Part shown: piece after piece, positions 1 to 25,590 of the stretch | Layout: each line of letters begins with the position of its first letter | How positions within the stretch are numbered: position 1 is the stretch's first letter | Virus record (IMG/VR): IMGVR_UViG_3300020404_001626 | Location: 1 to 27,436 of that record | DNA: 27,436 nt | Strand: one strand, 5' to 3' | Source of the DNA: a virus | The notes under the pieces: model-generated | The model's input: the letters and a program-made list of their open reading frames with translations, nothing else | Databases searched by the model: none | What the model was told of the DNA's origin: nothing | Made by a program: the position numbers and the translations under genes

Positions 1-3000
1 CCATATTTCTAAGAAATATTCTCTCTGTGCTAGTGTACAATCAAATGATTGATTATATCCAGGATTTAAAATTTTATTTCCTTGTTTTACAATTACATTA
101 TGACTATTAGGTAAAGCACTATACGGTGTTTTAGGAAGTGTGAATAACTTAGTACTTCCATCGCCTATAAATTCTGTTGTTTCAATTTTACTAAAGTTAT
201 CTATTCCTGTATAAACTGCAAAATTAATTATACTGTTGTCTGGTGGTGGACTACCAAATACAATCATTGCTTTTGGATCTTTGTTAGTACTATCACCGGT
301 TGATGTAAGCACACTTTCTACTGCTTTACCATTTACTGTTGCATAATAATCTAAGTTTGTATCGTAATGAACTTTAGTAACATATGCTAAAGTACTGCCG
401 TCACCTACAAATTCGCTTTGTTCTAATGAGTTTTTACCGTTACCACTAATTGATACAATATTAACTTCTTGGTTTGCGTTAGGTACAGTATTAAATGTTA
501 CTGTTTTCAATCTGTAATCTACTTTATATAAAGATTGTGCTAATATTACATCATTAAGTTTAACAATTAAGCCTTCTTTATTCTGTGGTTGAATACCAAA
601 TTCATATACTCCTGAAATACCATCTGATCTATAAGAGTTACTTGAAAGTAAACTGCCTCCTTCTTTAGGTCTATGGAATACTCTAATGTTTACTGCATCT
701 AATACTTGCCCTGGTACTTGTTCTTCAGGACCTTTTGATGTTGTTGGACTTATAAAGTCATCACCGTCAACAATAATTTCTTCTGGATTAATACCTCTTG
801 CTGTACTAAATGCTAAGTCGCCGCCTGTTAATACAGTATCATAAGATCTTGGATCAGGCAAAAATGCTCCGTCGGAAGTACTTTTTCTAAATACAAGTAT
901 ATCTCCTGGTCCTGTTGGAATATTTTCTTCGTCTAGGACAATTATACTGCTTCCTAAATCGCCAGCATCGTCATACAACGCAACACCAGTTTGACCTGCA
1001 CCAGTAACACTTTGCATAACTGCATTTGTATTAGTGACAGGATTAGCTGTTCCAAAATTAGGATCGTCTAATCTGACTCCGTTTTTATAAACATTATAAA
1101 CTGTGTTTGCTACTAACGGAGTAGCAAAATTTAATACCCGTGTACTATCGTCACCAATTTGGAAAATTTCATCCTCAAATGTAGTATCAAATGTATCATA
1201 GGTTGTTGTGAACCAACCATCTGAATCCCAACCAGTACCTGTACCAAAGTCAAAACTACTTACTTCAACTCCACCATAATCAATACCGTCTATTAACTGT
1301 GCAAGATCATTCCCGTACATACCAGTAGTTGGATTGTAATAAAGATTAATTCTATCTTGTGCTTGTAATAATTCTGGTGCTTTATTATATGTAATAGTAA
1401 TTGCTCTATTCACATTCAGTGCATTACTAAACACAATACGTCCGTAACTTCTTGTATATCCTTTTGAAGTATCAGTTACATTACTAAATGTATACTCACT
1501 ACGTAATGATTCTAATCCATCAACTGTTACAGTAATTTGTGTTGACACTAACTGCATTGGCCATTTTAAATTAAATATTTGCTGATCAACACCAGATGTA
1601 AATGTTTGCGTTTCATTAAGTGTTTGGAACAAGTATGTTCCGGTCACTCTATCAAATTTACATCTAATGTGTGCAGATCTTGCTTTACCTCTTCCTAAGA
1701 TAGGACTTAGTCTAGCAATAGATCCTGTGTCACCAAAAGATCCAACAACTTGTATAGTAGGTGCTGTGAGATATCCGCTACCTGCATTTGTAACTTTAAC
1801 ACTTGTTACTCTACCACCTGTACCAATAAATGCTTCTGCTGTGGCGCCAGAGCCTCCTCCGCCGCTAATAATAATCTTAGGAGCAACTTGGTAGCCTGAA
1901 CCTGAATCGGCAATACTAAATGACGTTACTTCAAAGCCTAAATTATCTAACCAATGTCTGCTAGGATAGTTTTGTAAATCTGAAACTCCAGGTATTACTT
2001 CATTTCCAATAACTTGTACACTTTGTGGTACAATCTTTCCTTCATCTTCATTGTAATAAGGAGCAAGATCAAAGTCAGTAATAACATTACTTGCAGGATC
2101 TACTTTTTCGTATGCACTTAGATATTCTCTAATCTTAGTTTTGTAAGGTTTCATTTCTGTAACATAATCTTGATAACTTGGAAGACTATCGTTTTGGAAT
2201 GTAACTTTTTGTGCTAGTTCACCAATATTGTGTTTTGCTTTAACAAAACTAGTTTTGAATACCCAATCAACATTAGGTTGTTCAGATAAAACATATCGTA
2301 TACTTGCAAAGAATAATTCGTTCCAGTATACTGCAAGGTTATCAATGAAAATATCAGATTTTAAAATTTCTAGTATTTTTCTAAATTCTGTATCTGGTTC
2401 TGTATCATAGAATATTTTATCAAAACTTGCACCGTCAAACGCACTATTACTTGCACTAGTATCGTACAAGCTGTTTTTAAATTCTATTGTTCCGTTTTCT
2501 CTACCTATAGTTTCGTAACTTAATGTGTAATCTTGTGTATCTAAGTTAGAAATCTTTCTAAGTAATAGCCAGCCGCCTGTGCCAACACTATTAATTTTAA
2601 CAATGTCACCAATTTGATCATCTAATGCATAAATTTGATAACTTGAATCTACAGTATAATTTATAAATGTAAATTTATTATAACCTGTTGCATACCAATC
2701 TCTATATTGCCAGTAAAGATTTATATCATAACTTTGTGTAAGTGTTCTTAAATATTCTGTACCATCGTATTCATACACACTCCACTTACCACTCACAGTT
2801 TCGTCACTTTTGACTAGAACTGCAAATTTTCTTACTGTAATTGTAACACGGTCTGTATAATCTCTACCACCGTTAACAATTTCTACAGATGAAATTTTAC
2901 CGTTAGCATCAAGTTCAAATTTTAATTCACATCCGCTACCTTCAGTATCTGCAATTTTGTATGTAGGAGTGTTAATGTATCCTTGTCCAGGATCATTTAC

Positions 3001-6000
3001 TATTACATTAATAATGACACCATTTTCAACTTCCAATGTTAACGAAGCTGGTTTAACTCTAGCAACACTTACAAATCTTAGTTCAGCATTACTATCACTT
3101 GTTGTATCATAAAGTCCTGTTGCTAAAGTAGGACTTGGGTCAAAACCAGTTAGTTTTGTTAAATCAAATTCATCAACAATTAAATGTTTGGCCAATGTAC
3201 CATTTGTTCTTTCAATAAATTGTTTACGTGCTTCTGTTCTGTTGACAAACCAACTCTGTCTCGGATCATTTAATGCACCATAACGACTCTTAATTGGTAA
3301 ACTAATATCCGGTACAGGTCTATCATTTTTATCAAAGCCAACTAAACTATCAAACCATTTTTGTTCAATTTCTCTGTTAGGTACACTTGTTTCTAAACCA
3401 TCACTTACTAATTGATATTGAATGTGTGTAGGTTGTTCTTGATTTTCAATAGTCCACCAATTGAAACTTATAGCTGTATCTGTATCTGATATAAACGGAC
3501 TACAATTAAATAATGCAAATCTATTATCACCTAACATTGCAACAAATCTATAACCCATTGATGCAGGATTTGCAATATATCGAGCTACATCAATTGCTGT
3601 TGTCACTCTGTTTTCTATTTCTGGTAATGTTGTTTTATTTGTTACCCAATAGTAATAATGAGTTTCAAATGTTTGTGATGCTTCGTCATACCTTCTTCTA
3701 GAACTGTAAACACTATCTCCGTACAGTGATGTTCCTGATATACCATTTTCTACACCATCAGGTGTAGCTGATTGAGTATCCCATTCACTTGGAAGTAATG
3801 TTGATTCAACCCATTCGTGAACTTGTACATTAGTTCCTGCAAACAATGTATTAAAGTTTGCTGTTGATTCTGATATATCACCTTGATGGTAATTAATAAA
3901 TCTAGCACTGTCAATATCCCACCACAACTTACCAATCCATTCATCGCTTGTGTAATCGAGTGTATCTGCTGTAATAATTGCATCTGTTGAATTATTATAT
4001 TTTGCTGGATCATAACTTGTTTTAAAAGATATTTCTTGTTCTGCTGGTCCTGCAATCTTTCCTTGTATAGGATCAATATAATCAAGATATGTGCGTAATC
4101 CGTTAGTTTTTTTGTTATACAAGTACACACCTTTAAACTTACTAGTATCTACTGGTATTATAGGTTGTCTTGTAATCAACCATGACGTTGTGTTCATTGG
4201 TTTTCTAAACTCTGCAACTAAGCCTTTATCAAGTATACTACTATTTGGTACTTGCTGTTTAGGTAATCCAATATAAACATGATTACTGTTTACAGCCATT
4301 CTGTTACCAAAGTCTTGCGTATCTAAATCATATGTAAAGTTTTGACTGTATAATAATGTGTTATTAACTGTTTCATATAAACTTACAACACCACTACCTT
4401 GATCTATCGTTTGGAATACTGTTGAATTATTATCGAAGGAAGTTTCAATTGGATTTATTTGTGATTTATTATCTAAAATATATCTTTCTACAGAAGTTAC
4501 ATCTGGAGTTTTTCTATCTCTATGTACATCAAAAGTAGCTTTTTCGATCATACTGCCGCCACGTGATGCAACTGCAAGTGTATTACCATCGAAATCAATC
4601 TTTGTACCAAATTGAATGTTTACTGATTTATCTATTGGACGTAATGTTTGATTGTAAACAAATGTATTTCCGTTTTGAACATAAATGTATACTGCTCCGC
4701 CGTTCTTTGATATATCACTATTTTGTGGTGCACCTACAGCAATCTTTTTACCATCATTAGATACTGCAATACTCAATCCAAAATCCTCAGTTTCATTAAA
4801 AGGTTCTAGTATTTGTGAGTATTCATAGTTTGATCCATTTTGTCTGTAAACTACAACTTTTCTATTTGCTATACTACTATCTAATCCTAATACTGTATCG
4901 CCTGATTCAATTTCGTAAACACTAGTATACATAGAATTAGAAATTAATACTTCGCCTTTTAAACTTACATCAAAATCAGATCCAAATGCTTCTAAATTTC
5001 TTTGCTCCAATGTACTTTCAACTAAAGAGAAGTTTGTATCATTAGGTACATATCCTAAAAGATCTAATCCATTACTTTGTGCAGTCCATTGACTTACATT
5101 AAACACACCTGGAACTAAGTTAGTGTTAGCTTTATAAATTGTTTCTCCAAATCTTACAAATTCACCTTCAAAATAAGTTGCTGAAACTCTAAAGTCTCCT
5201 CTGTAATTTTTCTGTACAGACAATGCCCAATCATCTTCAGCATTTTTATTAACGAAATAGATTCTACCTTGATTAGCTTCTGTGCCGTCGCCTTCAGCAT
5301 GAATATATAATTTGTAACTATTCAAATCTGGTTGTACAAATTTTAATTTTGTTCCTAGCTTACGATAGTTTGCACTATTAGGAACAGTATAATAATTAAT
5401 TAATTGATAGGTAACGCCTTTCATTTCATAAATTGCAAACGTACCTTGTTCTTCTAATGCTGTTTCATAACCTTCTGCTATTGCTGGTATATTGTATACC
5501 CTTTTCCAATCTAAGTTAATGCTAGACGGAGGATTAGCAACATCTGTAATACCTTCGATTGTGTTATCTGAATAAATCCAATATTCTAAATCTCTTAAAT
5601 AATTTGCTCCGCCAACTACTACAGGAATATTCACACCACTGTCAATAACTATAATGGGTCCTGAAATAGTATTTTCCATATGTGCAGAATTAATAGGTCC
5701 AATAGTTCTTGTAGCAGGTCCAAGACCTGGAACATTTTCAACAAATGTTGCATTTGAATTAACACCAAAATCTGATCCTACAGCCCAAGTACCATTTCTA
5801 TTTTTAATATAAATTTTTGCTGTAGAAAATGCTCTTTCAATAAAGGCAATCTCACCAGTTGATCCTGTTGTAGTGTCTGTAAGTATATCTCCTACATTTG
5901 GAATAAAAGGATCTCCGTTAAGATCAAAGTTTGTTAATCTAACTTCAACATAACCATTCCATATATCAGCAACTGTGTGTTCAGTATTATTAATATAAGT

Positions 6001-9000
6001 TGATGTCAATCCTATAGCTGAAGGATCTTGAACTAATCCGTTTACACGTATGGTGTTTAGCCAAAGTCTTGTTTTATCGCCTACTGTAATACTGCTTCCG
6101 TGAGCTAATGGTGTTCTAACCCACCACTTACTATCTAAGACTTCAATATTACTCTGTCCTTGGGTATGAGAAAGTATACTTATTTCACTTACTTTAGTTG
6201 GCTCAAGTACATTTTGTAACTGCTTAGTATCTAAAATATTACTAAAGAACGGATCATTAACTGTTTCGCCTTCAAGTGTAATATTTTGTATAACAAGATT
6301 TGCTTTTGTTTCTACTAAATTGTTTGACAAAAACGAACTTCCTACTCCTACGTGCCACCAACCTGTATGATAATCATCAGTAATTTGTAATGATTCTACA
6401 TAGTCACCAACTAGAATGCCGTCTGCATAAATTTTTCCTGTGCCTTGGAATGAGCCATTTACATCTTTAATATAAACAGTCATTTCATTTTCATTGTTGA
6501 CTTTTCTATATTGTATAACTGCTCTACAAGTGTCTGTCGTAATTTCTGTACCAGCATCAGGTACACTTAACGCACTTTGAATATGGATAATATGTTGCAC
6601 TTTATCAATAATAGTATGAGTGCCATTAATTAAAGATTCAGTTAATGTAGTGTCGCCATTAAATGGTAATACTCCAGCTGAAGCTGTTGTCGTGTATTTG
6701 TTCCATTTTAGAGTTAATTTATCTCCTGGCTTAGTTCCTTCAAACTGTTCTTTTTCAGCTCTAACTAAAATATGATCTGTTGATTCATCTGCACCTAATG
6801 TATAATCGCCTCTAACTATATACTCAATTTCTGGATAAGTTTGAGTAGCTGAATCATAATCGTTTTCTTTTGCTTGTTGGTTAGATGAATGATTACTGTA
6901 TACTTGTAATGCATCTGCTTCAATAACTCTATCTGCTTTCCATAACTGTTCAGAGTATAAAACAATATCCCCTACAGCATATGCTTCTCTTGGATTAAAG
7001 TCTCCTCTTAATCTACTTTTAACGTTTGAAGCATGCGGAGAACCAATTGCAAGATACTTGCCATCTGGGCTCATTGCAACACTTTGTCCAAAGCCTCCAT
7101 TTGAATCAAACAAGAATAATTGTTCGTCTATTTGTTGTAAAAATCCAAAGTCTGTATTATCGCTAGGTCTTTGAAAAATGTAAACGCTTCCGTTAAGGTC
7201 TTTAGGTGCAGTAATTGCAATACGATTGTTATTGCTTGATACACTAAACGCACTACCAAAATCTTTTTCTGTAGAGTCAAGCAATCCTGCCGAAGTATTA
7301 ACAATATTGTTTTTTAATTCAAATACTTTTCTATTTTGTAAAACTAACCATTTGCCGAGGTCATCATCATCAATCCAAAGCCTATTATTTAATATATCAG
7401 TGTTTATAAAACTATCATTTGCTTTAGCAAGTGTTGCTAACCTAGCAATTTTAAATTCAGTAATGTACCCGTTAGTATCAGCTGTATCATCTGTTGCTTC
7501 TACATCTTCGCCTTCAAGGCTTTCTAATGTTATAATATTTAAAGAAACACTGTCTACTTTATAATACCCGTCGGTAGCATCTGAAATATCATTGATTCCA
7601 ATAATATCACCTTTTGTATAATTTGGTGCTTTATTACATGTAATTGTAAATTTATTTGACTGGCTTGCAGTTACACCTGAGATTCTAAAATCTGTAGATT
7701 CTAATTTGTAAACTCCCCATGTTTGTTGACTTTTATCTGATGCTGTCCAAATATAACTGTTTGTTGCAATATTTGTTTGTTGTAGAATATCATCGTAAGT
7801 TAATAAAGACAAACTTACGTCTGATGGGTTAACAAATCCTGCTGTTTTTGTATAGCTATTTTCTTCATTAAAATATTTTGTCGGAAACGGTTTATGATTA
7901 TAATCTTTACTCTTAACATAGATATCATTTCGTGATAGTCTATAAATTAAACTAGTATCCTGTGGATTTATTTCATTAACTAATTCAACTTGTTGTGGTT
8001 CTTGTCTATATTTTGTTTCATCAAAAATAATATCAAATTGATCGTCACCTTCAGTTGCACCATAGCGTCCAACACGCACTGCCCATTCTTCAAAAAATTC
8101 TAGACTATCTTTATTAGCACTTCCTAGCTTATCAAACAATTTAGTAAGAACATTTTTAGTTCCTTTATCTTGTATAGCACCTTGGAAAAATTTATATTGA
8201 CTTACTTCGTCATTAATTATATTTTCAAGGTATTTACGTTTTTGATAACCTGTTGCATGTTGAGCTAACTTCTGTTGCTCTATATCAAAGTTATCACTAT
8301 CTAAATCATAAAAGTCTGCAAACTGTTTTGCTTTATAATCAAAGTTAGGTAACAACTGTTGTTCAGGCTTTTCAGTAAGTCTTAAAAACTTTTTATCTTG
8401 AAAAATATTAGATCCTGTAATTTTAGTTTTAGAAACATAAAAATATTGTTTATACTTAACTAATGCACCTATGTCATAATCTTGCCAAGCAACCCATTCT
8501 GTTGGTTTTGCATCGTCAAAAATAAATCCTGGAATATTATAGGATCCGTTCCATTCGTCTGAACGATATCCTTTTACTTTAATTCTTTCTTGTCTGTAAC
8601 CCTGAGCTCTATTATAAATTACATCTCCGAATACAGTTTTATTATCAATAATAATTGCATGTTCATGTTGTACTAATGGTAACTTAAGATGGAATATTCC
8701 ATCTTCAGTATTCTTAACAAATATACCAAAATCGTTTGTATTATCTCTCTCAGTTGTTGCAAAATCTGCAAGCAATCGTTTGCCGTCAGCTTTTAGTAAA
8801 CTATAATCGTAAAAGTTATCATATATATCGTCAATGACAGAATATTTCTGCACAAATGTAATTTGTCTTGCACTTGGACTTACTGTTAAAATTGTACCAG
8901 CTTCCCAATTTTGTGTAGTCCAGAATAAAAACTCTTTAGCACTTAGTCTCCAGTTTTCAATTTCTTCAATTTCTTTATTAAAATTTTCAAAACTAAAACC

Positions 9001-12000
9001 TACTGTAGTAAGGTACTTTTGATATCCCATCATAAGGTCAACAACATCTTGTTTTTCTCTAAACAATGTACCGTATGGAAGTTCTGCAAGTGATGCACTA
9101 AAGTTTGTAGAAATGTATGCTGATGCTCCGCCTTCTTCAGGAAGCTCTGCTAGTTTTTGAAAGTTGTCTTGGACAAATCCTTCACCTGATGTATGTGATA
9201 TTTTAACTCTATAATAGTTGTCAGACAATTCAACAATCTGTCCTGCTTCATAAGTCTTGCCTTCGCTCCAAGTTAAAAAGTTTTCACTTATCCCACCTAC
9301 ATTAATTACTTGATCGCTATTTTTTCTTCTAACAGGATAGTATTTAAATACAGGATTATCTTTATCATAACCTTTTACAATATAGCCTGATGGAGAAACT
9401 TCAATAATCATTCCGCTGTAAGAATATACTTGTGTAGGAACACTCTTAGTCAATTGTATTTTATAATTTTCTTCTGGAACAAAAACATTACCTTCGTTAG
9501 TTGGTGTTCTTGAATCTAAAATTAATCTAAATTTAGACTTTTGTGTGAAACCTCCAATTTTAGATCCTAACTTATTTTCAATAGATCTAATATTTGTTTT
9601 ATAATCACTAAATCTAACAGTATCATTATCTGCAAGGTAACCTTGTATGTAATTAACTATACCAGCAGTAAATACCCTAGTGTCTTCTGTAGCACTATTA
9701 GGAAATATTAATTGATTCAATTCAATACGCTTACTTGTGTCTTTGTAAACTAATTGATCTGCGCCATTACGTACAATCCTACTTCTATCAAATGCTAATC
9801 CAAAAAACTGAGCTGGTTGATTTAGTGCCCAAGATATCATTAAACTAAACGGATAGTGTGAACTTCGACGCCAAGCTGTTTCTACAGGTCCTTCATCACC
9901 AAATGCAAACTCATTACTATTTGTAGTAGGAACATTTCCTACAGCATATCCTGTCTCATTAGGGGCTAACAAATTACCTTCATCATCAACTGGAATATAT
10001 TTGTAAATATCTTCATTCTTAAATTTATTTTTATATGTAACTTTTGATCCTTCTGGACCTCTGACAATACCTTTACTAATATCTTCCCAAAGTAATAAGT
10101 TATTGCTTGTATAAGGTGATGCACCATACTCGCTATCAAACCAATCAGGCTTTTCTTTAAAACCTAATATTTCCCAAGGGTGACTATGTGGTCTATCTGT
10201 GTTATAAAAGTCTTTGTATATTGATCTCCAAAAACCTGTAAGTGCGTTATTGTTAGGGTCTCCTGCAGATGCATAGTTATATGTAAATCCGTTGCCAACT
10301 TTATAAACTTGGTTAGTCACATAATCAGGTGTTCCAACAGTTTCTAACCAACTGTTGAATTCTGAAATCATCGTTTTAGAAATTTGCTTTCTTGTAAATC
10401 CTGTGACTCTATTTTTACTAGGAATGTAATCAGCAATGTTTACAATGTTTTCATCGTATGGTAACTTAAGATTATTATAAATTCTTTTTTCAATATCTAA
10501 TAAAAGATTATCTCTAAAGTCTCCAAAACATCTCCACAAACTACCATCGTGTCCTTGCAACATTGGATAAGCATTTGGATATTCTTCGTGTAACTGACTG
10601 TCATTAGTAGCATGACTCATTTCACTGTTTGGCATATAAAATACTTTATTAGTACCTGCAAATACATGTGTATGCACTTCGCCGGCGCCGCCGTTTAGTG
10701 TATCTGCTTGCTTCGCTGATAATTCATCTGTATACAGTGGATAAAACCAACCAAGTTTGCCTTTATAAGACTTTGTTGTTTTTTCGTCTCTACCGTATAC
10801 TTTCCACGGACCTGTTACATCTGTTGGTTGTGTAATATAAGTATCGTCTAATATAATTTCTGGAGTAAACTTAGGATACAATCCTAACTTAGTAGGTGTT
10901 GGTGGCACCCAGCATCCATCTGTTGTAGAATATTCATAAACATCTAATATGTCGCCGCCTGTTGGAGGATTTAATAATGTTAAGAAACCATCTGTACTGA
11001 CTGTGTAATCTTTGTTGATTAATAATTGTTTTTCATTTAAGTATGCTAACACTGCTGTTTCAGATAATGTTGTATAGTCAATACCACGTGTCAAACTAAA
11101 AATAGTTTGCGATTGATCTTCAATTATATGTCTAACCTTAGTGTCTCCACCATGTGGAATCATATCACTAAAATAAAATGGATCTTTGTTTGTTAAGTTT
11201 TCATGTAGTTTTGATAAAATTCTATCTACATGTACTTTGTCGTATCCTTCAAACCCAAGTTCGTCTGCTGTTCTCAAAAATTCTCTTTTGAATTTAATAT
11301 AAGCAAATGCAGAATATTTCATAGCTTCAATACTATTGAAATCTTTATCTGTCAAATTATATAATGCAAGGTTAATTGGACCACTATGTTGTACAAATTT
11401 TAAACCATATTTTGATCCATTTCCTAAATCACGTAAATTACTGACTCCGGGAAATACTCCTTCGAAGCCTGTTACATTATCAACAATACTTTCAACATGA
11501 TCTAATACTTCACCTAAAGTAAATGTTGTTACATTTTCATTTTGAGGATTTTTTTCAAAGTTAACCGGAAATTCGTAAAATCCAACACCTGGTCTCTTTT
11601 TAGCACTAGACTTTGTTTTTAAAACTAATTTGTCGTCTTTAGTTAATTCTTCATTGAATGTTACATATGCATAATTGTTAATTCTGTTAATAACATAATC
11701 AACATTCTCACGCTTGCGAACACTGTTTACGTAAGCCTTAATTTCTAAGTCGTTTAAATCTCCACTGTTTACATAAACATCAACAATAAAATTATTTGTT
11801 CTAGCACCAACTGTTGTTTGTTTAACAACAGGCTGTGACGATTTTGTTGGAGCTTTGGTCCAACCTGATACATTTGTAAAAGAAGTTCTATTTGAATACT
11901 TTCTTAATAATGCAGTGTCAGTGCTTTTTGTTATTACATCTGCTATGTCGTCATATTGATAAGTGTCTAATAATAAATTAAAATCAAAAACAATGTCACC

Positions 12001-13809
12001 ACTATTTTCAATAGTTCTATAACTTAACGGAAATCCTAGTTCTGTATCATTTGCACCTGTACCAACCTTGTAACTAAAAATTTTGTTTCCTCTAAAAGTG
12101 CTAGAATCTAAAGAAGATAATTGGCTACCATTGTCAGTGTATAAATCAAATAAAGGTTGTTGGTTAACTGTTGTTTTATCTTGGGTTTGTTTCCAATTAG
12201 TGCCATCGTAATAAAATATTTTACCTTTATAAGTTGTACCTGATTTTACCAATACTGTTTCATTCTCTAATGGTGCTGTGTCAGTAGTCTCTGTAAGTGC
12301 AATTTGTAATGTTCCGTTTTGATTAATAAAACCTACTTCATAAATTTTTCCTGCAACAAAACTATCTGGGTCTGCTGTAAATAATACACGCATACCACTA
12401 ACTAGCTCAACTCCGTCAACAAAATAACCTACTTGTCCTTCGATGTTTGAGAATACATCATTAGTAACAGTATCTACCAAATCAACTGCTGTTTTCGATT
12501 CGGTTCCAAATTGATAAAGTTTTATACCTGCTTCAAATTCAATAATTGGTCTTGTTGCTCTATATCTTTGATCTAATACAACAGGCACGTTGTTTATCTT
12601 AGCAATATTTTCAATTACACTTTTATGTGTCCATTTATTATAACGCGACCATTGGTTTCCGTCTTTAGAAGCTCTGTTAATAACGATATAATCTTTTAGG
12701 GTAGCATAAGAAGTAGCATCATCAAATGGTAATGCACTAAAACCTTGTGCATCAAATTCTGTAGATACATCTGACAAATAGTCAGCAGTAATAACTAAGT
12801 CGCTTTCTGAAATTAAATTAATTGATTCGCCAACACCTTCTACATACCAGTTACCTTCTCCGTATTTTTCTGGTGTAATTTGTCCGTAAAACTTAACTTT
12901 CATACCATTGGTTAATTTATAACCATTTTGCATAGTATAACTTTTCTTGCCAAGTATTTCACTACCAACATCTAATTGTGTATTATCTCTAATATCTTTT
13001 ATAATAATAAGTCCTGATGCTTCTATGTCATTCCCGTTAGTATAATATAAAACATCTGGTGATTCTAAACTAATTTTCCAAGTAATAGAACCTTGTTCAA
13101 CTTTTTGTTGACTTACATCTACATTGTACAAGTTTGAATCGTCATCAATACTATTGCTAGTCCTAATACTAAAGGGCATGTCTATACAATCAATATCAAA
13201 TGTATATTCTTGTCCTCTGTATAGTGTTAATGTAGGATTGCTTACTTTATTTTCTTCGCTAAAAATATAACTGTTGTTATCTATGTTATCTTGACGCTTT
13301 ACACTGAAAGTACTTTTGACGTCTCTTGCAGTTCCGAAAACTGGAATCTCGTCTGGGCCTGGTGGTAGCCAATAATATTCTCTAAAGTTTACAAACTTGT
13401 CCCAATCAATATGTGGTTGCCACGCATAATACTCTTGCGAATTATATAGACTGTGATCTGTGTTATCTGTATTTCTAATTTTAGATGCATTTACATAATC
13501 TCTATAGTCTCTGTAAAAAGTTGTATTACCTAAATCATCTGTAATTGTTGCAACAGGTTCTAATTGATAGTTTTCTCTATCAGGAGTGACATCTGACAAA
13601 TAATTATCAGAGGCTTTAAATGCTTTTGAATCTCTACGTCCAATAAATCCGTCAACCTTTTCAATAACGCCAGGTTGCATTAACTGATCAATTGTACTAC
13701 TTAGAAACTTTTTATTTGCTACTGTTCTAAAGTACTTTGGAAGTAAATCTGTTGACTTTCTTTTTGAAGTGTCACCTTCTACTGGAATTGGACTTTCATC
13801 TTGTGCCAT
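1..13809 (-). CDS. Giant modular virion/baseplate protein following gp6 (gp7 position), incomplete at the C-terminus
   Basis: One open frame of 4603 codons begins with ATG at 13809, sharing the A of the gp6 stop (TAATG), and reaches the left edge without a stop, so the true protein is longer. A GGAG-rich stretch from the gp6 glycine tail lies upstream of the ATG. The N-terminus (MAQDESPIPVEG, then RRDSKAFKASDNYL and NYQLEPVATITDDLGN) and later phrases such as YWQYRDWYATGYN near residue 3700 resemble what I recall of very large structural proteins of marine T4-like phages. Visible modules are an HTH...FYMP motif near residue 1046, four Trp/Tyr-rich CBM5/12-like segments (about 1514, 1772, 2270, 2869), FG-GAP repeats at about 2183-2265 and 2938-3190, and GxGY repeats at about 3606-3660 and 3966-4023. 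In T4 this position holds gp7, a wedge protein of about 1030 residues. A wedge or fibre-like adsorption role is inferred; exact family unverified. Confidence 0.88.
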   Translation of the reverse strand, partial: MAQDESPIPVEGDTSKRKSTDLLPKYFRTVANKKFLSSTIDQLMQPGVIEKVDGFIGRRDSKAFKASDNYLSDVTPDRENYQLEPVATITDDLGNTTFYRDYRDYVNASKIRNTDNTDHSLYNSQEYYAWQPHIDWDKFVNFREYYWLPPGPDEIPVFGTARDVKSTFSVKRQDNIDNNSYIFSEENKVSNPTLTLYRGQEYTFDIDCIDMPFSIRTSNSIDDDSNLYNVDVSQQKVEQGSITWKISLESPDVLYYTNGNDIEASGLIIIKDIRDNTQLDVGSEILGKKSYTMQNGYKLTNGMKVKFYGQITPEKYGEGNWYVEGVGESINLISESDLVITADYLSDVSTEFDAQGFSALPFDDATSYATLKDYIVINRASKDGNQWSRYNKWTHKSVIENIAKINNVPVVLDQRYRATRPIIEFEAGIKLYQFGTESKTAVDLVDTVTNDVFSNIEGQVGYFVDGVELVSGMRVLFTADPDSFVAGKIYEVGFINQNGTLQIALTETTDTAPLENETVLVKSGTTYKGKIFYYDGTNWKQTQDKTTVNQQPLFDLYTDNGSQLSSLDSSTFRGNKIFSYKVGTGANDTELGFPLSYRTIENSGDIVFDFNLLLDTYQYDDIADVITKSTDTALLRKYSNRTSFTNVSGWTKAPTKSSQPVVKQTTVGARTNNFIVDVYVNSGDLNDLEIKAYVNSVRKRENVDYVINRINNYAYVTFNEELTKDDKLVLKTKSSAKKRPGVGFYEFPVNFEKNPQNENVTTFTLGEVLDHVESIVDNVTGFEGVFPGVSNLRDLGNGSKYGLKFVQHSGPINLALYNLTDKDFNSIEAMKYSAFAYIKFKREFLRTADELGFEGYDKVHVDRILSKLHENLTNKDPFYFSDMIPHGGDTKVRHIIEDQSQTIFSLTRGIDYTTLSETAVLAYLNEKQLLINKDYTVSTDGFLTLLNPPTGGDILDVYEYSTTDGCWVPPTPTKLGLYPKFTPEIILDDTYITQPTDVTGPWKVYGRDEKTTKSYKGKLGWFYPLYTDELSAKQADTLNGGAGEVHTHVFAGTNKVFYMPNSEMSHATNDSQLHEEYPNAYPMLQGHDGSLWRCFGDFRDNLLLDIEKRIYNNLKLPYDENIVNIADYIPSKNRVTGFTRKQISKTMISEFNSWLETVGTPDYVTNQVYKVGNGFTYNYASAGDPNNNALTGFWRSIYKDFYNTDRPHSHPWEILGFKEKPDWFDSEYGASPYTSNNLLLWEDISKGIVRGPEGSKVTYKNKFKNEDIYKYIPVDDEGNLLAPNETGYAVGNVPTTNSNEFAFGDEGPVETAWRRSSHYPFSLMISWALNQPAQFFGLAFDRSRIVRNGADQLVYKDTSKRIELNQLIFPNSATEDTRVFTAGIVNYIQGYLADNDTVRFSDYKTNIRSIENKLGSKIGGFTQKSKFRLILDSRTPTNEGNVFVPEENYKIQLTKSVPTQVYSYSGMIIEVSPSGYIVKGYDKDNPVFKYYPVRRKNSDQVINVGGISENFLTWSEGKTYEAGQIVELSDNYYRVKISHTSGEGFVQDNFQKLAELPEEGGASAYISTNFSASLAELPYGTLFREKQDVVDLMMGYQKYLTTVGFSFENFNKEIEEIENWRLSAKEFLFWTTQNWEAGTILTVSPSARQITFVQKYSVIDDIYDNFYDYSLLKADGKRLLADFATTERDNTNDFGIFVKNTEDGIFHLKLPLVQHEHAIIIDNKTVFGDVIYNRAQGYRQERIKVKGYRSDEWNGSYNIPGFIFDDAKPTEWVAWQDYDIGALVKYKQYFYVSKTKITGSNIFQDKKFLRLTEKPEQQLLPNFDYKAKQFADFYDLDSDNFDIEQQKLAQHATGYQKRKYLENIINDEVSQYKFFQGAIQDKGTKNVLTKLFDKLGSANKDSLEFFEEWAVRVGRYGATEGDDQFDIIFDETKYRQEPQQVELVNEINPQDTSLIYRLSRNDIYVKSKDYNHKPFPTKYFNEENSYTKTAGFVNPSDVSLSLLTYDDILQQTNIATNSYIWTASDKSQQTWGVYKLESTDFRISGVTASQSNKFTITCNKAPNYTKGDIIGINDISDATDGYYKVDSVSLNIITLESLEGEDVEATDDTADTNGYITEFKIARLATLAKANDSFINTDILNNRLWIDDDDLGKWLVLQNRKVFELKNNIVNTSAGLLDSTEKDFGSAFSVSSNNNRIAITAPKDLNGSVYIFQRPSDNTDFGFLQQIDEQLFLFDSNGGFGQSVAMSPDGKYLAIGSPHASNVKSRLRGDFNPREAYAVGDIVLYSEQLWKADRVIEADALQVYSNHSSNQQAKENDYDSATQTYPEIEYIVRGDYTLGADESTDHILVRAEKEQFEGTKPGDKLTLKWNKYTTTASAGVLPFNGDTTLTESLINGTHTIIDKVQHIIHIQSALSVPDAGTEITTDTCRAVIQYRKVNNENEMTVYIKDVNGSFQGTGKIYADGILVGDYVESLQITDDYHTGWWHVGVGSSFLSNNLVETKANLVIQNITLEGETVNDPFFSNILDTKQLQNVLEPTKVSEISILSHTQGQSNIEVLDSKWWVRTPLAHGSSITVGDKTRLWLNTIRVNGLVQDPSAIGLTSTYINNTEHTVADIWNGYVEVRLTNFDLNGDPFIPNVGDILTDTTTGSTGEIAFIERAFSTAKIYIKNRNGTWAVGSDFGVNSNATFVENVPGLGPATRTIGPINSAHMENTISGPIIVIDSGVNIPVVVGGANYLRDLEYWIYSDNTIEGITDVANPPSSINLDWKRVYNIPAIAEGYETALEEQGTFAIYEMKGVTYQLINYYTVPNSANYRKLGTKLKFVQPDLNSYKLYIHAEGDGTEANQGRIYFVNKNAEDDWALSVQKNYRGDFRVSATYFEGEFVRFGETIYKANTNLVPGVFNVSQWTAQSNGLDLLGYVPNDTNFSLVESTLEQRNLEAFGSDFDVSLKGEVLISNSMYTSVYEIESGDTVLGLDSSIANRKVVVYRQNGSNYEYSQILEPFNETEDFGLSIAVSNDGKKIAVGAPQNSDISKNGGAVYIYVQNGNTFVYNQTLRPIDKSVNIQFGTKIDFDGNTLAVASRGGSMIEKATFDVHRDRKTPDVTSVERYILDNKSQINPIETSFDNNSTVFQTIDQGSGVVSLYETVNNTLLYSQNFTYDLDTQDFGNRMAVNSNHVYIGLPKQQVPNSSILDKGLVAEFRKPMNTTSWLITRQPIIPVDTSKFKGVYLYNKKTNGLRTYLDYIDPIQGKIAGPAEQEISFKTSYDPAKYNNSTDAIITADTLDYTSDEWIGKLWWDIDSARFINYHQGDISESTANFNTLFAGTNVQVHEWVESTLLPSEWDTQSATPDGVENGISGTSLYGDSVYSSRRRYDEASQTFETHYYYWVTNKTTLPEIENRVTTAIDVARYIANPASMGYRFVAMLGDNRFALFNCSPFISDTDTAISFNWWTIENQEQPTHIQYQLVSDGLETSVPNREIEQKWFDSLVGFDKNDRPVPDISLPIKSRYGALNDPRQSWFVNRTEARKQFIERTNGTLAKHLIVDEFDLTKLTGFDPSPTLATGLYDTTSDSNAELRFVSVARVKPASLTLEVENGVIINVIVNDPGQGYINTPTYKIADTEGSGCELKFELDANGKISSVEIVNGGRDYTDRVTITVRKFAVLVKSDETVSGKWSVYEYDGTEYLRTLTQSYDINLYWQYRDWYATGYNKFTFINYTVDSSYQIYALDDQIGDIVKINSVGTGGWLLLRKISNLDTQDYTLSYETIGRENGTIEFKNSLYDTSASNSAFDGASFDKIFYDTEPDTEFRKILEILKSDIFIDNLAVYWNELFFASIRYVLSEQPNVDWVFKTSFVKAKHNIGELAQKVTFQNDSLPSYQDYVTEMKPYKTKIREYLSAYEKVDPASNVITDFDLAPYYNEDEGKIVPQSVQVIGNEVIPGVSDLQNYPSRHWLDNLGFEVTSFSIADSGSGYQVAPKIIISGGGGSGATAEAFIGTGGRVTSVKVTNAGSGYLTAPTIQVVGSFGDTGSIARLSPILGRGKARSAHIRCKFDRVTGTYLFQTLNETQTFTSGVDQQIFNLKWPMQLVSTQITVTVDGLESLRSEYTFSNVTDTSKGYTRSYGRIVFSNALNVNRAITITYNKAPELLQAQDRINLYYNPTTGMYGNDLAQLIDGIDYGGVEVSSFDFGTGTGWDSDGWFTTTYDTFDTTFEDEIFQIGDDSTRVLNFATPLVANTVYNVYKNGVRLDDPNFGTANPVTNTNAVMQSVTGAGQTGVALYDDAGDLGSSIIVLDEENIPTGPGDILVFRKSTSDGAFLPDPRSYDTVLTGGDLAFSTARGINPEEIIVDGDDFISPTTSKGPEEQVPGQVLDAVNIRVFHRPKEGGSLLSSNSYRSDGISGVYEFGIQPQNKEGLIVKLNDVILAQSLYKVDYRLKTVTFNTVPNANQEVNIVSISGNGKNSLEQSEFVGDGSTLAYVTKVHYDTNLDYYATVNGKAVESVLTSTGDSTNKDPKAMIVFGSPPPDNSIINFAVYTGIDNFSKIETTEFIGDGSTKLFTLPKTPYSALPNSHNVIVKQGNKILNPGYNQSFDCTLAQREYFLEIW
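1741..1905 (-). repeat. GxGY repeat pair in the giant protein
   Basis: Residues about 3969-4023 contain GSGYQVAPKIIISGGGGSGA and then AGSGYLTAPTIQVVG, two copies of a GSGY...P.I pattern joined by a glycine-rich turn and a short G-R-V-T-S-V strand. A diverged copy (GQGYINTPTYKIADTEGSG, then NGGRDYTDRVTITV) is encoded at about 2840-2994. Such repeats are common in beta-rich phage structural proteins; no specific binding function can be read from them. Confidence 0.6.
4242..4998 (-). repeat. FG-GAP (integrin-alpha-like) repeat cluster B within the giant protein
   Basis: Four repeats of about 60-100 residues occur at roughly residues 2942, 3009, 3067 and 3167 of the giant protein. The clearest is DFGLSIAVSNDGKKIAVGAP followed, after a short Ser/Asn-rich loop, by GGAVYIYVQNG, the classic FG..VA...DG..IAVGAP...G.VYIY pattern of seven-bladed propellers. 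The others (FGSDFDVSLKGEVLISNS, FGTKIDFDGNTLAVAS, DFGNRMAVNSNHVYIGLP) are weaker. In known families such repeats form beta-propeller blades used for protein or glycan contacts. Confidence 0.75.
7018..7272 (-). repeat. FG-GAP repeat cluster A within the giant protein
   Basis: Two repeats lie near residues 2183 and 2240: DFGSAFSVSSNNNRIAITAP with a following GSVYIF, and GFGQSVAMSPDGKYLAIGSP. They match the FG-GAP blade pattern and are separated from cluster B by about 680 residues. Together the two clusters give about six blades, close to the seven expected of one propeller; whether they fold together is inference. Confidence 0.72.
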
Positions 13810-16800
13810 TAGTATCCATAGCCTCCACCGCCGCCGCCGGAGCTACCTCCGCCGCCACTTGATCCGCCGCCACCACTTGATGATCCTCCGCCACCGCTTG
13901 ATGATCCTCCGCCACCGCTTGATGATCCTCCGCCACCCGAGCTACTGCCGGAGCTACTTGAGCTACTTGAGCTTGAGTAAGTGGTTGTGCTAGTAGTGCT
14001 TGTAGTTGTTGTATTTGTTGTAGCCACTTGGTTTAATGGTTGGCTTCTAATGCCAGCATTAGTTGTTCCTGTTGATGTAACAATTTTTCCTGATGCTTGT
14101 ATTCTTGACGCTGTAATAGAATCAATAATTTCAACATCATCAACTGTTGCATCATTAACAAAGATCTCGTTGTTCTCTGCTTTGACTTCATATAAGCTAC
14201 CAAATCCTTGTGTAGCCTGTTTAGGCACAAGGAGTATGTTAACAACATCTGGTGCTACTTCGTTCATTACATATGTTGCAAGTTCAGTAAAGTGGAAAGT
14301 GTCTCCGAAGTCCCAATTTTGTAATGCAAAGAATCTGTTTATGGCTCCAATTACATTAACTTTTACTTCATTATTATTAACAACTTCTCCGCCATTTTTT
14401 ACAATTTTAATTGTTGCTTGTAAGTTATCTTGTGCATGTACTCCAAACAATGGTTTATAACTAACAGGGTGATAAATTACTTCATCACTTATTGACTTGT
14501 ATAAAGCAATGGACGAACCATAGTTTTGAAATAACTCATCAGTGCTTGGTGGTAAAGGCATAACACTTGTTGCACCTGCAAGATATCTTCTAAAGTTTGT
14601 ATCATAAGTTTTAGTCAACATATAAATGTCAATAATATTACTTGCACTAGGATCAATTCTATTTCCTTCATCTGCACTGTGTACATAATGGAATTTTAGA
14701 TTTGATCTTCCAACTTGTGCTTTGTAATCTGCTGTTACTGTAAGGATGTTGTTACTTAAAAATTTAAAGTTGTTAGTATCAATAATATAAAACACTTGTC
14801 CTTCATTGTACTGACTGTATGCTCCAATTTCTGTTTCTGTAGAAACAACATTAATTGTATTACCTTGACTATAATAATTGTATTTGCTAAATCCTTCGTC
14901 TGTAGATTGTTTCTTTAAGAATATATATTTTGTAGATGGATTTGTTAACGGAGCAACAACATTGTCAAAGATATCTGGATCGTCTACGCTTCCGTCGTCA
15001 TTTAAATCAAAGAAACTTACTTCTACTTTTTTACTATTAATATATCCGTCTGTATTTCTAAACTCATTAACAATTTCCCAATCTATATCATTGTTAAAAT
15101 TTTCTAATGAATCTGGCTTTGTATTAAAATTCATTATACCGATTTTGTCTTTTACTAATTGCCCTGTTTGTGAATCGTAAATTTTATTTTGTCCATCAAA
15201 GTAAAAACTTAATTCTGTATCACTTTCAAAAACATATCTTAGTCCTCTGTTTGTAACAGTATACTTTTCTCCGTTAGTTTCAAAAAGAACAATCCAACTT
15301 GAGTCAAGTTGATTTTTTGTTACATCACCTGTTTTACCATTACTGAATACATCTACTGTATTCAAGTTTTCATTAATAATTACTCTCCAGTTACGATTAA
15401 CTTGGTCGTAACGTAATGCAAATGTTTTGTATGCAAACACTTGATCAATAATCTGTGATCTAATATCAGGCGTAATGTCTTTTACTATCTTAGGTTTTAC
15501 TTCTTCAAGTACACTGTTAGCAGGAAGTATTTCATTAAACACAATAGGACCTACACCTGTAACACTATCAACACTTGTACCTGCACCGTTAACACTGATA
15601 ACTTTTACCCATTTATAATCACTTGCACCTTTTGCTGATGCGTCACTAGTAAGTTCTCCATCACCGATAAAATAAAAACCTAGTGGTGATTTAAATTTAA
15701 GCAAAGCCCCAGCTTCTATATATTTTAAAGAACCTCCAGTAAATGATCCTACTTGATATGGAACATCACTTATATTTTGAAGTAAGCCTGTTGAACTATT
15801 TGTAGTTTTAGTTGATTGTTTCCATCTAGCATTTAGATCACTAACAATAATTTTAGCGTAGTTGCTAAAATAAAAATTACTAATTGCTCTACTTTGTATA
15901 ATAGGTAATATAGTATTTTCTATAGCACCTTCAATATCTGTTTGTGTATTAAAAGTAAATGACGTTTTGCTCTCATAAGGTTCTCTATATAACACACCAT
16001 CTGAGCCATATAAATTAGTGCTTGAATATTTTCCAGTAGCATCTTTTAAATCAAAATATCTACTAATACCGCTTGTTGTTCTGTTTGTTGATTTTACTTT
16101 TATAATTTCTTGGTTACTAGTCAAAGGAACAATATTATAATCTTCGCCGGTAATCATTCTGTTTTGTGTGTAGTAAGTTTGCGGAGCATTTTGTCTAATG
16201 TCTGCGGATGATTCACTAGTTGTTGCGTTAGTGACTGGTGTTTTAAGTTCAACACCAATAGTCATTGTTTCCGTTGTACCTGATTGACTAACATAAGGTA
16301 GAGAGAATGTTATACTTGTTAATTCGCTAGGTGCAATAGACATTAGCCTATTAGCACTAGTTCTATAATAAACTCTAAACTGGCCTGCAGGTAAATTACC
16401 AAAAGTTCCATCTGCAAATACTAGACTTACTTCATCGTCTGCTCTAGTTTGTACAGCATAAAAGTCTCTGATACGCTTATTCAAACTATTGTAAATTGCA
16501 TTGTTACCTTCTAAAGAATCAACCTTAGACCAAATTCTATCTGGTATACCAAGATCGTCTAATGAATATAACCATACATCTGTATCGTTAATATTCTGTG
16601 CTTCAATTGCAATTTTTTGATTTGAACTTGGACTATTAACATTGAACACATTAGATTTCAAAGTTCCTTGTCTAAAATGTAAAAAATATCCTGTGTTTGC
16701 ACTTCCTGAACCTCTACCATCTTCTCTATACAAAAATGCTAAACTTGTTCCTGGTACAGGATTCTCTTCTTTAATTACTTTTCTATCTTCGTCAATACCA

Positions 16801-17450
16801 GTTGACACCATTTCAAATTGTGTTGGCTGTCCACCAACTGCTTTAGTAAAAGAAAATACAGGAACATCTGCTCCTTCACTATTAAATCTATACTGTTGTG
16901 TTGACACTCCATTAATTACTACTGTCTTAGCTGGCTTACCTATTGTTCCATTTTGAGGTAGTGCCGCATTAAGAACACGTCTAAACTGCTCTGCCCAATT
17001 TGCGTTACTAGGATCGTTCCAAATAATTGTTTGGCCTGATAGATTACTACCGTTACTATCTACTAACGATTCTGAAGTGCTTACTGTCTCAAATTTGATT
17101 AATCCGTTTGCACATTGATTACGTTTAGGATTGTACGATAGCATACGTGCTAAACGGAGAACTGATTCTCTACGTTCAGCTAGTTCTAAAAAGTTTTCTC
17201 TTGCGTTTAGATCAACTCTGTAACTGATATTTTGTCCTAAGAACGCAATCATATCAATAAGAGCAATATACTCTGATGTATCTACATAGTCGTTAAAATC
17301 TTCTGGGTAATTTTGTCTTAGATAGGTGATCATTGCCCGTCTAAGTGTGTCAAAGTCGTAACTACGGAACTCCGCATTACGGTAGCTTTGGTATACTTTC
17401 TGCCAATCTTCTGCAAGTAGCAGTCTATTTTGTCTGTCGGTTGATGACAT
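13809..17450 (-). CDS. 6: Baseplate wedge protein gp6-like, with a Ser/Gly-rich C-terminal tail
   Basis: This is a gp6-like wedge subunit; in T4, gp6 dimers join neighbouring wedges into the ring of the baseplate. The N-terminal 150 residues carry the recognisable block: LRRAMITYLRQNYPEDFNDY, then EYIALIDMIAFLGQNISYRVDLN, then ENFLELAERRESVLRLARML. Length is 1213 residues, nearly double T4 gp6 (about 660). An EF-hand-like loop (DLNDDGSVDDPD) lies at residues 815-826. The last 55-60 residues are a Thr/Ser run followed by repeated GGGGSSS units ending in GYGY, encoded by GC-rich 21-bp repeats unlike the surrounding AT-rich DNA. The ATG start has AAGGA six bases upstream. A late-promoter-like AATAAATA lies about 28 bases before the start. 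The stop overlaps the ATG of the giant gene. Confidence 0.92.
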   Translation of the reverse strand: MSSTDRQNRLLLAEDWQKVYQSYRNAEFRSYDFDTLRRAMITYLRQNYPEDFNDYVDTSEYIALIDMIAFLGQNISYRVDLNARENFLELAERRESVLRLARMLSYNPKRNQCANGLIKFETVSTSESLVDSNGSNLSGQTIIWNDPSNANWAEQFRRVLNAALPQNGTIGKPAKTVVINGVSTQQYRFNSEGADVPVFSFTKAVGGQPTQFEMVSTGIDEDRKVIKEENPVPGTSLAFLYREDGRGSGSANTGYFLHFRQGTLKSNVFNVNSPSSNQKIAIEAQNINDTDVWLYSLDDLGIPDRIWSKVDSLEGNNAIYNSLNKRIRDFYAVQTRADDEVSLVFADGTFGNLPAGQFRVYYRTSANRLMSIAPSELTSITFSLPYVSQSGTTETMTIGVELKTPVTNATTSESSADIRQNAPQTYYTQNRMITGEDYNIVPLTSNQEIIKVKSTNRTTSGISRYFDLKDATGKYSSTNLYGSDGVLYREPYESKTSFTFNTQTDIEGAIENTILPIIQSRAISNFYFSNYAKIIVSDLNARWKQSTKTTNSSTGLLQNISDVPYQVGSFTGGSLKYIEAGALLKFKSPLGFYFIGDGELTSDASAKGASDYKWVKVISVNGAGTSVDSVTGVGPIVFNEILPANSVLEEVKPKIVKDITPDIRSQIIDQVFAYKTFALRYDQVNRNWRVIINENLNTVDVFSNGKTGDVTKNQLDSSWIVLFETNGEKYTVTNRGLRYVFESDTELSFYFDGQNKIYDSQTGQLVKDKIGIMNFNTKPDSLENFNNDIDWEIVNEFRNTDGYINSKKVEVSFFDLNDDGSVDDPDIFDNVVAPLTNPSTKYIFLKKQSTDEGFSKYNYYSQGNTINVVSTETEIGAYSQYNEGQVFYIIDTNNFKFLSNNILTVTADYKAQVGRSNLKFHYVHSADEGNRIDPSASNIIDIYMLTKTYDTNFRRYLAGATSVMPLPPSTDELFQNYGSSIALYKSISDEVIYHPVSYKPLFGVHAQDNLQATIKIVKNGGEVVNNNEVKVNVIGAINRFFALQNWDFGDTFHFTELATYVMNEVAPDVVNILLVPKQATQGFGSLYEVKAENNEIFVNDATVDDVEIIDSITASRIQASGKIVTSTGTTNAGIRSQPLNQVATTNTTTTSTTSTTTYSSSSSSSSSGSSSGGGGSSSGGGGSSSGGGGSSSGGGGSSGGGGSSGGGGGGYGY
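13878..13940 (-). repeat. Three 21-bp tandem repeats encoding GGGGSSS in the gp6 tail
   Basis: Three adjacent units (13878-13898, 13899-13919, 13920-13940) each encode the heptad GGGGSSS. The first two are identical and the third differs only in its last codon. Flanking sequence from about 13818 to 13977 is a more degenerate version. In-phase 21-bp units can expand or contract without breaking the frame. Confidence 0.9.
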
Positions 17451-17514: not shown

Positions 17515-17949
17515 TCACGATAATCCAACGTTTTTATCAAACTGCATTTTTAGTTGTTCACTAATATTGTAGTCTAAATACGTTAGCGTACATTCAACCT
17601 GAAGTCCGCTTTCAAATTCAGAAACTTGTACGCCGGATGCTCTTGTTCTTGGGTCATAATTAACAATATTTGTAACGTTAGATGTAATCGCTTCTTTTAA
17701 TCTAGTTGTTAATGGTTCGTATAATGCTTCCCAGATAATACAACCAAACGTAGGATCGGATAACTTTTCTCCTTGTCTAATATGCAGATGATTAAGCAAA
17801 TTCTGTTTAATCAAAGCAATATCATACTGCTGAAAGGAGCTATTTTCAGCATTTACTGTACTGAAACCCCTATATGTTTTTGCCCTAATAGGATTCTTCT
17901 TCTCTTTCTTAGGTGTAATTTTAATTTGTTTATATAAATCTGTTGCCAT
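17515..17949 (-). CDS. 25: Baseplate wedge protein gp25-like
   Basis: This is a GPW/gp25-family wedge subunit of 144 residues, close to T4 gp25 (132). In T4 it sits in the inner baseplate with gp6 and gp53 and helps start sheath assembly. Family features seen are an N-terminal basic stretch (KKEKKNPIRAKTYRG), FQQYDIALIKQNLLNHLHIRQGE at about 39-61 with the usual Gly-Glu turn, DPTFGCIIWEALYEP at about 65-79, and a C-terminal beta region containing YDPRTRASGVQV. The start is ATG with AGG about 11 bases upstream. It follows PAAR after 17 bp and precedes gp6 by 64 bp. Nothing is missing relative to the family. Confidence 0.93.
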   Translation of the reverse strand: MATDLYKQIKITPKKEKKNPIRAKTYRGFSTVNAENSSFQQYDIALIKQNLLNHLHIRQGEKLSDPTFGCIIWEALYEPLTTRLKEAITSNVTNIVNYDPRTRASGVQVSEFESGLQVECTLTYLDYNISEQLKMQFDKNVGLS

Positions 17950-25510: not shown

Positions 25511-25532
25511 ATTAATTGTCTCCTATATACAT

Positions 25533-25540
25533 TATTTAGT
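25533..25540 (-). promoter_or_regulatory. Candidate T4-type late promoter for the baseplate operon
   Basis: The minus strand reads ACTAAATA, matching six of eight bases of the T4 late promoter TATAAATA, 22 bases before the gp48 ATG and just upstream of its AGGAG. It lies in the only intergenic region that can drive the operon from inside this window. It is tentative because a six-base match is weak. Confidence 0.35.
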
Positions 25541-25568
25541 TGACTTTATTAACAGAGTAGTTTATAAT
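25540..25568 (+). promoter_or_regulatory. Strong sigma70-type promoter of the gp55 gene
   Basis: The -35 box is TTGACT at 25540-25545 and the -10 box TATAAT at 25563-25568, with a 17-bp spacer, one base from the bacterial consensus. Start of transcription is expected near 25575. A GGAG at 25582-25585 precedes the ATG by five bases, giving a very short leader. The -35 box touches the candidate late promoter on the opposite strand. Confidence 0.85.
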
Positions 25569-25590
25569 ATAACAAACAATCGGAGAAAAT

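Follow-up and report, generated by a model that had tools for sequence, protein, structure and literature searches.

The virus fragment IMGVR_UViG_3300020404_001626 (27,436 bp; the entire record was analysed and is called the window here) raises the question of what protein is specified by a reading frame of 4,603 stop-free codons, which runs on the minus strand from an ATG at 13809 to base 1, and where in the virion such a protein belongs. Our answer, to which we give a probability of about two in three, is that this giant is a ~565-kDa baseplate protein of a myovirus of the RaK2/Atu_ph07 jumbo supergroup, most likely in the place of gp7 (gpI, TssG). A gp7-type wedge protein is suggested by the gene order gp25-gp6-giant, by a short signature around a KGT motif, by a match of the T4-type gp7 profile to the post-gp6 protein of the cyanophage S-CAM22 and by virion mass spectrometry of relatives.

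The giant frame is a real and intact gene under purifying selection. An earlier note on this DNA had described a frame without a stop from the ATG to the window edge, and this is borne out: each of the five remaining frames across 1-13809 contains 219-695 stops, and an open run of 4,603 codons has a chance of ~10^-175 at the base composition of the stretch. The GC content at the three codon positions (~0.44/0.37/0.17) is coding-like and steady from end to end. The frame is interrupted by the contig edge at base 1, and the earlier note had described an incomplete protein of >500 kDa whose stop should be sought on a flanking contig. Such a contig is IMGVR_UViG_3300012954_000026, which is 99.9% identical to window 810-21666 (locus L054; 22 mismatches in 20,857 bases) and differs from window 1-11500 at 6 of 11,500 bases (locus L005). 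It supplies a TAA stop 430 codons beyond the window edge and brings the complete protein to 5,033 aa, 564.6 kDa and a pI of 4.8. The ATG of the giant overlaps the TAA of the preceding gp6 gene by one base.

Relatives carry the gene in one piece. Many of the environmental contigs are close relatives, and the counts of contigs and loci given here are not counts of independent events. Pairing loci of the same contig joined 31 of the 49 C-terminal and 22 of the 80 N-terminal loci. All 22 two-ended contigs, the near-identical contig among them, have one uninterrupted open reading frame (ORF) of 4,987-5,033 aa, and the stop is reached in all nine contigs having the C-terminal locus only. The N-terminal loci are open to their ends in 147 of 148 cases (at least 656 codons, bounded by locus length); the sole frameshifted one, L173, breaks after 1,084 codons, and homology resumes in another frame. 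A consistent split into several genes, which the earlier note had thought of, is found neither in the two-ended contigs nor in isolated phages. Four relatives, two of them nearly identical to each other, were compared with the giant over three segments within its first ~4,330 codons, and the Nei-Gojobori ratio of nonsynonymous to synonymous substitution rates (dN/dS) is 0.083-0.152.

The giant is a large new member of an already catalogued family without assigned function and not a new kind of protein. It matches PHROG_10938, 'virion structural protein', in four stretches (E=0, 1040 bits), and the family is annotated as 'structural' or 'hypothetical' in jumbo phages. Homologues occur in the RaK2-group isolates Phosso (4,555 aa), Atu_ph07 (gp180, 4,449 aa), PA5oct (gp355, 3,857 aa), SCTP-2 (3,807 aa), Vibrio phage 2.275.O (3,771 aa), CBB (CBB_236, 3,340 aa), RaK2 (gp465, 3,326 aa), K64-1 (3,321 aa) and XacN1 (ORF325, 3,313 aa); the available part of PMC11242549 adds AP-J-162 gp58, a 'structural protein' of 4,455 aa numbered beside gp57, a 'baseplate wedge protein'. 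In the RefSeq record of K64-1 (L224, NC_027399.1) the annotated gene is confined to the last 1,373 codons and is accompanied by many tiny genes on both strands; the DNA holds an intact frame of 3,321 aa, and GenBank annotates the whole of it. Peptides from virions, for which the earlier note had suggested looking, are reported for relatives only: the PA5oct homologue bears a note of electrospray-ionization tandem mass spectrometry (ESI-MS/MS) in its record, and CBB_236 was found in virions with 21 unique peptides and 7.72% coverage according to the accessible text of PMC5259590. The virion-protein cluster CDS 170-215 of Atu_ph07 spans the gene number of its giant, which is not itself listed in the portion of PMC6102473 available to us.

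IMG/VR is rich in members of the window's clade and in their kin: a degenerate scan gave at least 600 matches, 554 of the 600 listed being confirmed relatives. The environmental relatives may be mostly marine, and one of them bears a Tara Red Sea title. Among phage records, 60 match residues 1-500 at E<=1e-5, a few of them through one domain only. Isolated phages gave no match to bases 1-13809 by megablast or to residues 4104-4603 by tblastn, and a PDB sequence search with the giant returned one meaningless match (E=0.43). In the available parts of the literature on MIJ3 and of two reviews nothing about the giant was found. As relatives lie on contigs of 262 and 335 kb and in the isolates, the window phage probably has a jumbo genome. 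A scan of bacterial genomes met relatives on three contigs of metagenome-assembled genomes, from which no host evidence is drawn; two of these relatives (L217 and L218, 46% identity) lie on 153- and 335-kb contigs of a Neomarinimicrobiota genome, and binning is no proof of host.

The position of the gene is almost invariant. A gp6 homologue lies upstream in all 146 environmental loci (of 148) with at least 2 kb of upstream sequence, the gp6 stop being -1 to 64 nucleotides from the first matched codon, and the giant directly follows gp6 in eight of the nine RaK2-group isolates, or nine of ten with AP-J-162; the exception is SCTP-2. The earlier note had placed the frame in the gp7/gp8 position, and the giant does stand straight after gp25 and gp6, in an order that parallels gp25/gp6/gp7 of P-HM1 and W-J-I of P2. 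Elsewhere the gene after gp6 encodes 4,446 aa in P-HM1 (where it is labelled gp7), 6,273 aa in S-CAM22 (gp152) and 1,016 aa in HTVC008M (gp055). The suggestion that the protein would be among the largest in viruses of this class has to be dropped, since the 172-kb S-CAM22 and the 181-kb P-HM1 have such 6,273- and 4,446-aa genes in the slot. T4-like cyanophages fill it with a different giant family (L146:6355-25176 in S-CAM22, L223:2130-15470 in P-HM1); residues 1-600 of the S-CAM22 giant match 408 phage records, and the PHROG_701 profile has 6136 positions.

The second line of evidence is a segment with the pattern KG[TI]x6[LF]Fx2L, which lies at residue 1882 of the window giant. Among 141,178 ORF residues of 12 phage loci, the strict pattern occurs only in the slot proteins of T4, S-CAM22 and HTVC008M, of which S-CAM22 alone was not used in writing it. 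It is present in 33 of the 36 members of alignment A4 and in none of eight other giants scanned; a looser form fits seven of these eight, the exception being XacN1, and KG[TS] stands in the motif column in 11/11 rows of an 11-sequence alignment. Score matrices for a 37-residue signature were built from known slot proteins only, and the scores were averaged per column over the giant family (2,688 columns). With five families (T4-type gp7, HTVC008M, S-CAM22, P2 gpI and P-HM1), the KGT column ranks 1 of 2,688, and 2 of 1000 permutations are as good. It also ranks first with the P-HM1 'gp7' alone, which was unused in finding the motif (3/1000), and with the matrices from HTVC008M, S-CAM22, P-HM1 and P2 (0/1000), from T4, HTVC008M, S-CAM22 and P-HM1 (17/1000) and from T4, HTVC008M, S-CAM22 and P2 (4/200 and 16/1000). 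When all windows were scanned, the best near-KGT window of the HTVC008M slot protein came 3rd of 327; of the 25 near-KGT windows of P2, 11 reach the 1882 column, as do 7 of the 9 of HTVC008M, against 5 of the 115 other windows of P2 and 30 of the 318 others of HTVC008M. The T4-type gp7 profile matches the S-CAM22 post-gp6 ORF at the KGT segment only (gp7 positions 725-753, E=2.4e-6). HTVC008M gp055 matches PHROG_2885, a 'baseplate wedge subunit' of 4,179 positions, with a whole-protein E of 1.1e-38, and its best stretch, residues 167-281, encloses its KGT at 205. Taken together, the KGT segment suggests a shared wedge anchor and is evidence for it, not proof. Our literature search found no publication tying RaK2-group giants to gp7 through KGT, and this is the sole basis for calling the link new.

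A number of results weigh against a gp7 identity. The motif was first spotted by eye, and the strict pattern was written after the T4, HTVC008M and window proteins had been compared. T4 gp7 alone ranks the KGT column 27th, with 200 of 200 permutations as good; T4 and P2 together rank it 3rd (109/200), and P2 alone ranks it first with 66 of 200 permutations as good. The five-family mean log-odds at the column is negative, and absolute scores are low. Ranks in nine single giants are 37, 5, 4, 3, 208, 30, 1, 6 and 79, the window giant's own site being the one at rank 37, with a score below the maxima of its shuffles. Ranks drop to 3 and 10 when the KGT columns are blanked, the best near-KGT window of P2 gpI is only 10th of 140 in the all-window scan, and Mu gp48 has no KG[TISV], so the motif is not universal. 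Comparison of whole profiles is also negative. The earlier note had proposed to compare slices with T4 gp7, gp8 and gp10; nine slices of the giant reach at most 5% probability with T4-type gp6-gp10 by hhalign, and several of the same slices find the XacN1 homologue at up to 99.8%; the window's gp6 paired with T4-type gp6 served as control and gave 88%. The T4-type gp7 profile matches no RaK2-group record, a test of little power because it also misses the HTVC008M slot protein gp055, and Tail_P2_I (PF09684) is found in no RaK2-group record, nor in T4. The confidence (predicted local distance difference test, pLDDT) of the AlphaFold2 (AF2) model is below 50 at the KGT segment. No gp7 is among the best 50 fold rows of each search, which says little because one cupredoxin-like domain fills the PDB rows of the first model and the second model is weak (pLDDT 65.6). 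Lastly, gp6 of SCTP-2 is located elsewhere, away from its giant; that giant (gene 141, L137:6609-15899) is preceded by another large gene, of 3,096 aa and dissimilar to it.

Such results leave some room for a protein of the peripheral baseplate or fibre network that merely lies in the gp6 operon, the true gp7 equivalent being elsewhere and too diverged to see. The missing whole-profile likeness, the SCTP-2 arrangement and the many fibre-type modules in the giant would all fit, as would the many CBB structural proteins left unassigned (PMC5259590, in its accessible sections). We nevertheless consider this unlikely, given the adjacency to gp6 in every environmental locus with enough upstream sequence and in nine of ten isolates, the first rank of the KGT column, and the same segment in cyanophage slot proteins, one of which is labelled gp7. 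Far less probable is a place outside the baseplate, such as the whiskers or hairs of the tail shaft. Very long proteins would suit long fibres, and a review, as far as its text is available, credits CBB, 121Q and Atu_ph07, all of which carry homologues, with whiskers or hair-like fibres; against this, the gene is fixed beside gp6, GAP32 also has a homologue while its whiskers are doubted, and the CBB authors left the whisker gene unassigned (both in the available part of PMC5259590). An assembly artefact or a joining of several genes, for which one might point to the single fragment and the frameshifted L173, can be dismissed in view of the 22 intact two-ended contigs, the genes of this length class in completely sequenced phage isolates and a dN/dS of 0.08-0.15 in every segment tested.

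If the giant is a gp7-type wedge protein, the gp6 dimer would have as its partner a short, probably helical segment near residues 1864-1900. Gp7-type proteins sit with two gp6-type chains in the core bundle, and the XM1 version, of 242 aa, binds tail spikes (PMC10457771, from the text available); the TssF/TssG pair of the type VI secretion system has the same arrangement (PMC6300606, likewise in part). By analogy with T4 there would be six copies per baseplate. The ~1,850 residues before the anchor and the 3,150 after it would then make up the baseplate periphery in place of gp8, display carbohydrate-binding-like and propeller modules that might serve host recognition, and dock the fibre proteins encoded just downstream. 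A wider scheme, which we hold tentatively and at somewhat under even odds, would see one gp7-type family with P2 gpI (176 aa) at its small end and proteins of 3,300-6,300 aa at its large end. The RaK2 supergroup and the cyanophages would each have added modules before and after a common short anchor, and in the RaK2 supergroup the chain would have absorbed gp8's place, so that six copies of ~3,300-5,000 residues form an outer baseplate with receptor-binding modules.

That the giant may cover the place of gp8 agrees with the distribution of the gp8 domain. PF09215 is found in none of nine RaK2-group records, two of which (the 262-kb contig of L083 and that of the Vibrio phage) may be incomplete, nor in residues 1-4603 of the giant, and the controls T4 and HTVC008M are positive. 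The gp9/gp10 N-terminal family is above cut-off in the 262-kb contig and in T4, and below it in SCTP-2 and the Vibrio phage. T4 gp8, gp9 and gp10 were also tried as counterparts and rejected, as they show no similarity to slices of the giant, to a ~200-aa protein encoded downstream or to three downstream fibre-type genes.

The modules of the giant bear on a further idea of the earlier note, a gp7 core with modules added. The KGT signature and the cupredoxin-like, chitin-binding-like and FG-GAP modules fit it; likeness to gp7 or gp8 by whole profiles was not detected. All features of the gene (1..13809, residues 1-4603 of 5033, with the gene end taken from L005) are on the minus strand. Alignment with isolates shows residues 1-2000 and 3200-3950 to be conserved and the C-terminus variable. 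A conserved helical stretch at residues ~20-60 (13630..13752; LP..FRT...F....DQL..PG....GYIGR) recurs in the 23 sequences of alignment A5; for it Pfam gives no above-cut-off match in member 1 and nothing consistent at E<=10 (Toprim_Crpt in 3/23 members). Residues 163-276 (12982..13323) are modelled by AF2 as a cupredoxin-like beta-sandwich (mean pLDDT 78.7; best Z 11.1 over 100 residues, 2.3 A), which matches a gp9-annotated protein of S-CAM22 (hhalign 92%) and a tail fibre-like protein of P-SSM2; the domain also occurs in cyanophage fibre and connector proteins. A chitin-binding-like module of carbohydrate-binding module (CBM) type 5/12 is predicted at residues ~1507-1558 (9136..9291), where PF02839 scores 25.1 bits (E=1.8e-5), below its cut-off of 26.2, and the fold match is middling (Z 7.0, 45 residues, 1.2 A). 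A second CBM-like module at residues ~1767-1812 (8374..8511) resembles 8fqc_P1 from the baseplate of phage Milano (Z 8.0, 45 residues, 1.3 A), with weaker fold rows to chitinase B in a model of low overall confidence.

The KGT signature scans place the proposed gp7/gpI-type anchor, residues 1864-1900, at 8110..8220. Then comes a region of FG-GAP (beta-propeller) type with inserts, residues ~2170-3200 (4210..7302), delimited by FG-GAP_2 and by alignment per 100 residues. FG-GAP_2 reaches 45.4 bits in the window giant (Pfam cut-off 23). Of the 23 environmental members, 18 have it at E<=0.001; Phosso, Atu_ph07 and PA5oct do not, even at E<=0.1. In RaK2, CBB and Vibrio 2.275.O, little or nothing aligns with residues 2000-3200. 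At 1960..4212 lies the second of the conserved blocks (residues 3200-3950). GSGY..AP repeats at residues ~3960-4043 (1681..1932) are the source of a match to PHROG_460, 'head closure Hc2', a label that was rejected for the giant since it rests on SGY repeats. The same label on HTVC008M gp055 (L216:33435-36485) looks wrong as well, given the gp7 slot and a KGT stretch that matches the wedge family PHROG_2885. C-terminal repeats opening with GDGST start at residues 4468 and 4548 (1..408), with a third at 4919 outside the window; a regular-expression search for simple repeats in isolates found little.

The neighbouring genes, also on the minus strand, are those of a baseplate operon. The gp6-type wedge protein (13809..17450; PHROG_10646, E=1.6e-284) gives 88% to T4-type gp6 and 97% to HTVC008M gp6 by hhalign, and its C-terminus (window ~13809-14040) is a low-complexity tail rich in Thr, Ser and Gly (..SSSGGGGSSSGGGG..YGY). 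Upstream of it are the sheath initiator gp25 (17515..17949; PF04965, PHROG_43/261), a PAAR spike tip (17967..18272; PF05488) and a gp5-type hub with a lytic domain (18453..21284; PHROG_13211, PF22178), whose C-terminal GH19/endolysin-like domain scores slightly below cut-off for GH19. A baseplate wedge subunit in the gp53 slot (24324..24614; PHROG_7145) follows the gene order of CBB and RaK2. At 25510-25591, where GC and AT skew change, the coding strand switches between the baseplate operon and a late-sigma-factor/SbcD-like pair. Downstream of the giant, L005 encodes the ~200-aa protein, homologues of which lie close behind the giant in five of eight isolates examined (Phosso, Atu_ph07, PA5oct, SCTP-2 and the Vibrio phage; hhalign 99.6-100%). 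The XacN1 gene after the giant does not match it, and RaK2 and CBB have a Clp protease gene behind the giant. Beyond the ~200-aa gene in L005 stand the three fibre-type genes, which have a common N-terminal module; one bears a tail collar domain.

The giant is ordinary for its phage group, and the link to gp7 would be useful if confirmed. Giant gp7s would explain the apparent lack of gp7 and gp8 in RaK2-group phages, would make residues ~1820-1990 the target region for structural work, and would show how growth of a single subunit can enlarge a contractile baseplate.

Among known systems, VrlC is the one that had to be set aside. According to the available part of PMC7029224, pelagi- and cyanomyophages lack T4 gp7, for which VrlC, a large baseplate protein, apparently stands in. 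VrlC differs from the giant in its place, after gp8, and shows no detectable similarity to it, hhalign giving <1% to HTVC008M VrlC in five slices; the identity was rejected. P-HM1 and HTVC008M keep separate gp8 and VrlC, unlike the picture in the RaK2 group. T4 gp7 and P2 gpI share with the giant the place after gp6/gpJ, the KGT(I) segment and, as proposed, the role of partner to the gp6 dimer, whereas the giants are 5-30 times longer and whole-length similarity to T4 gp7 was not detected. The post-gp6 proteins of cyanophages and pelagiphages (PHROG_2885/701) have the slot, a similar size range and the KGT segment in common with the giant; SGY repeats also occur in those of S-CAM22 and HTVC008M, and these repeats are the only part that hhalign finds in common. 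Closest are the RaK2-group giants, which are homologous over the two conserved blocks (1-2000 and 3200-3950) with ~12-42% identity per aligned 100 residues, are likewise single ORFs and mostly stand straight after gp6; the window's clade differs in being longer (4,987-5,033 aa), with the FG-GAP region and different C-terminal repeats.

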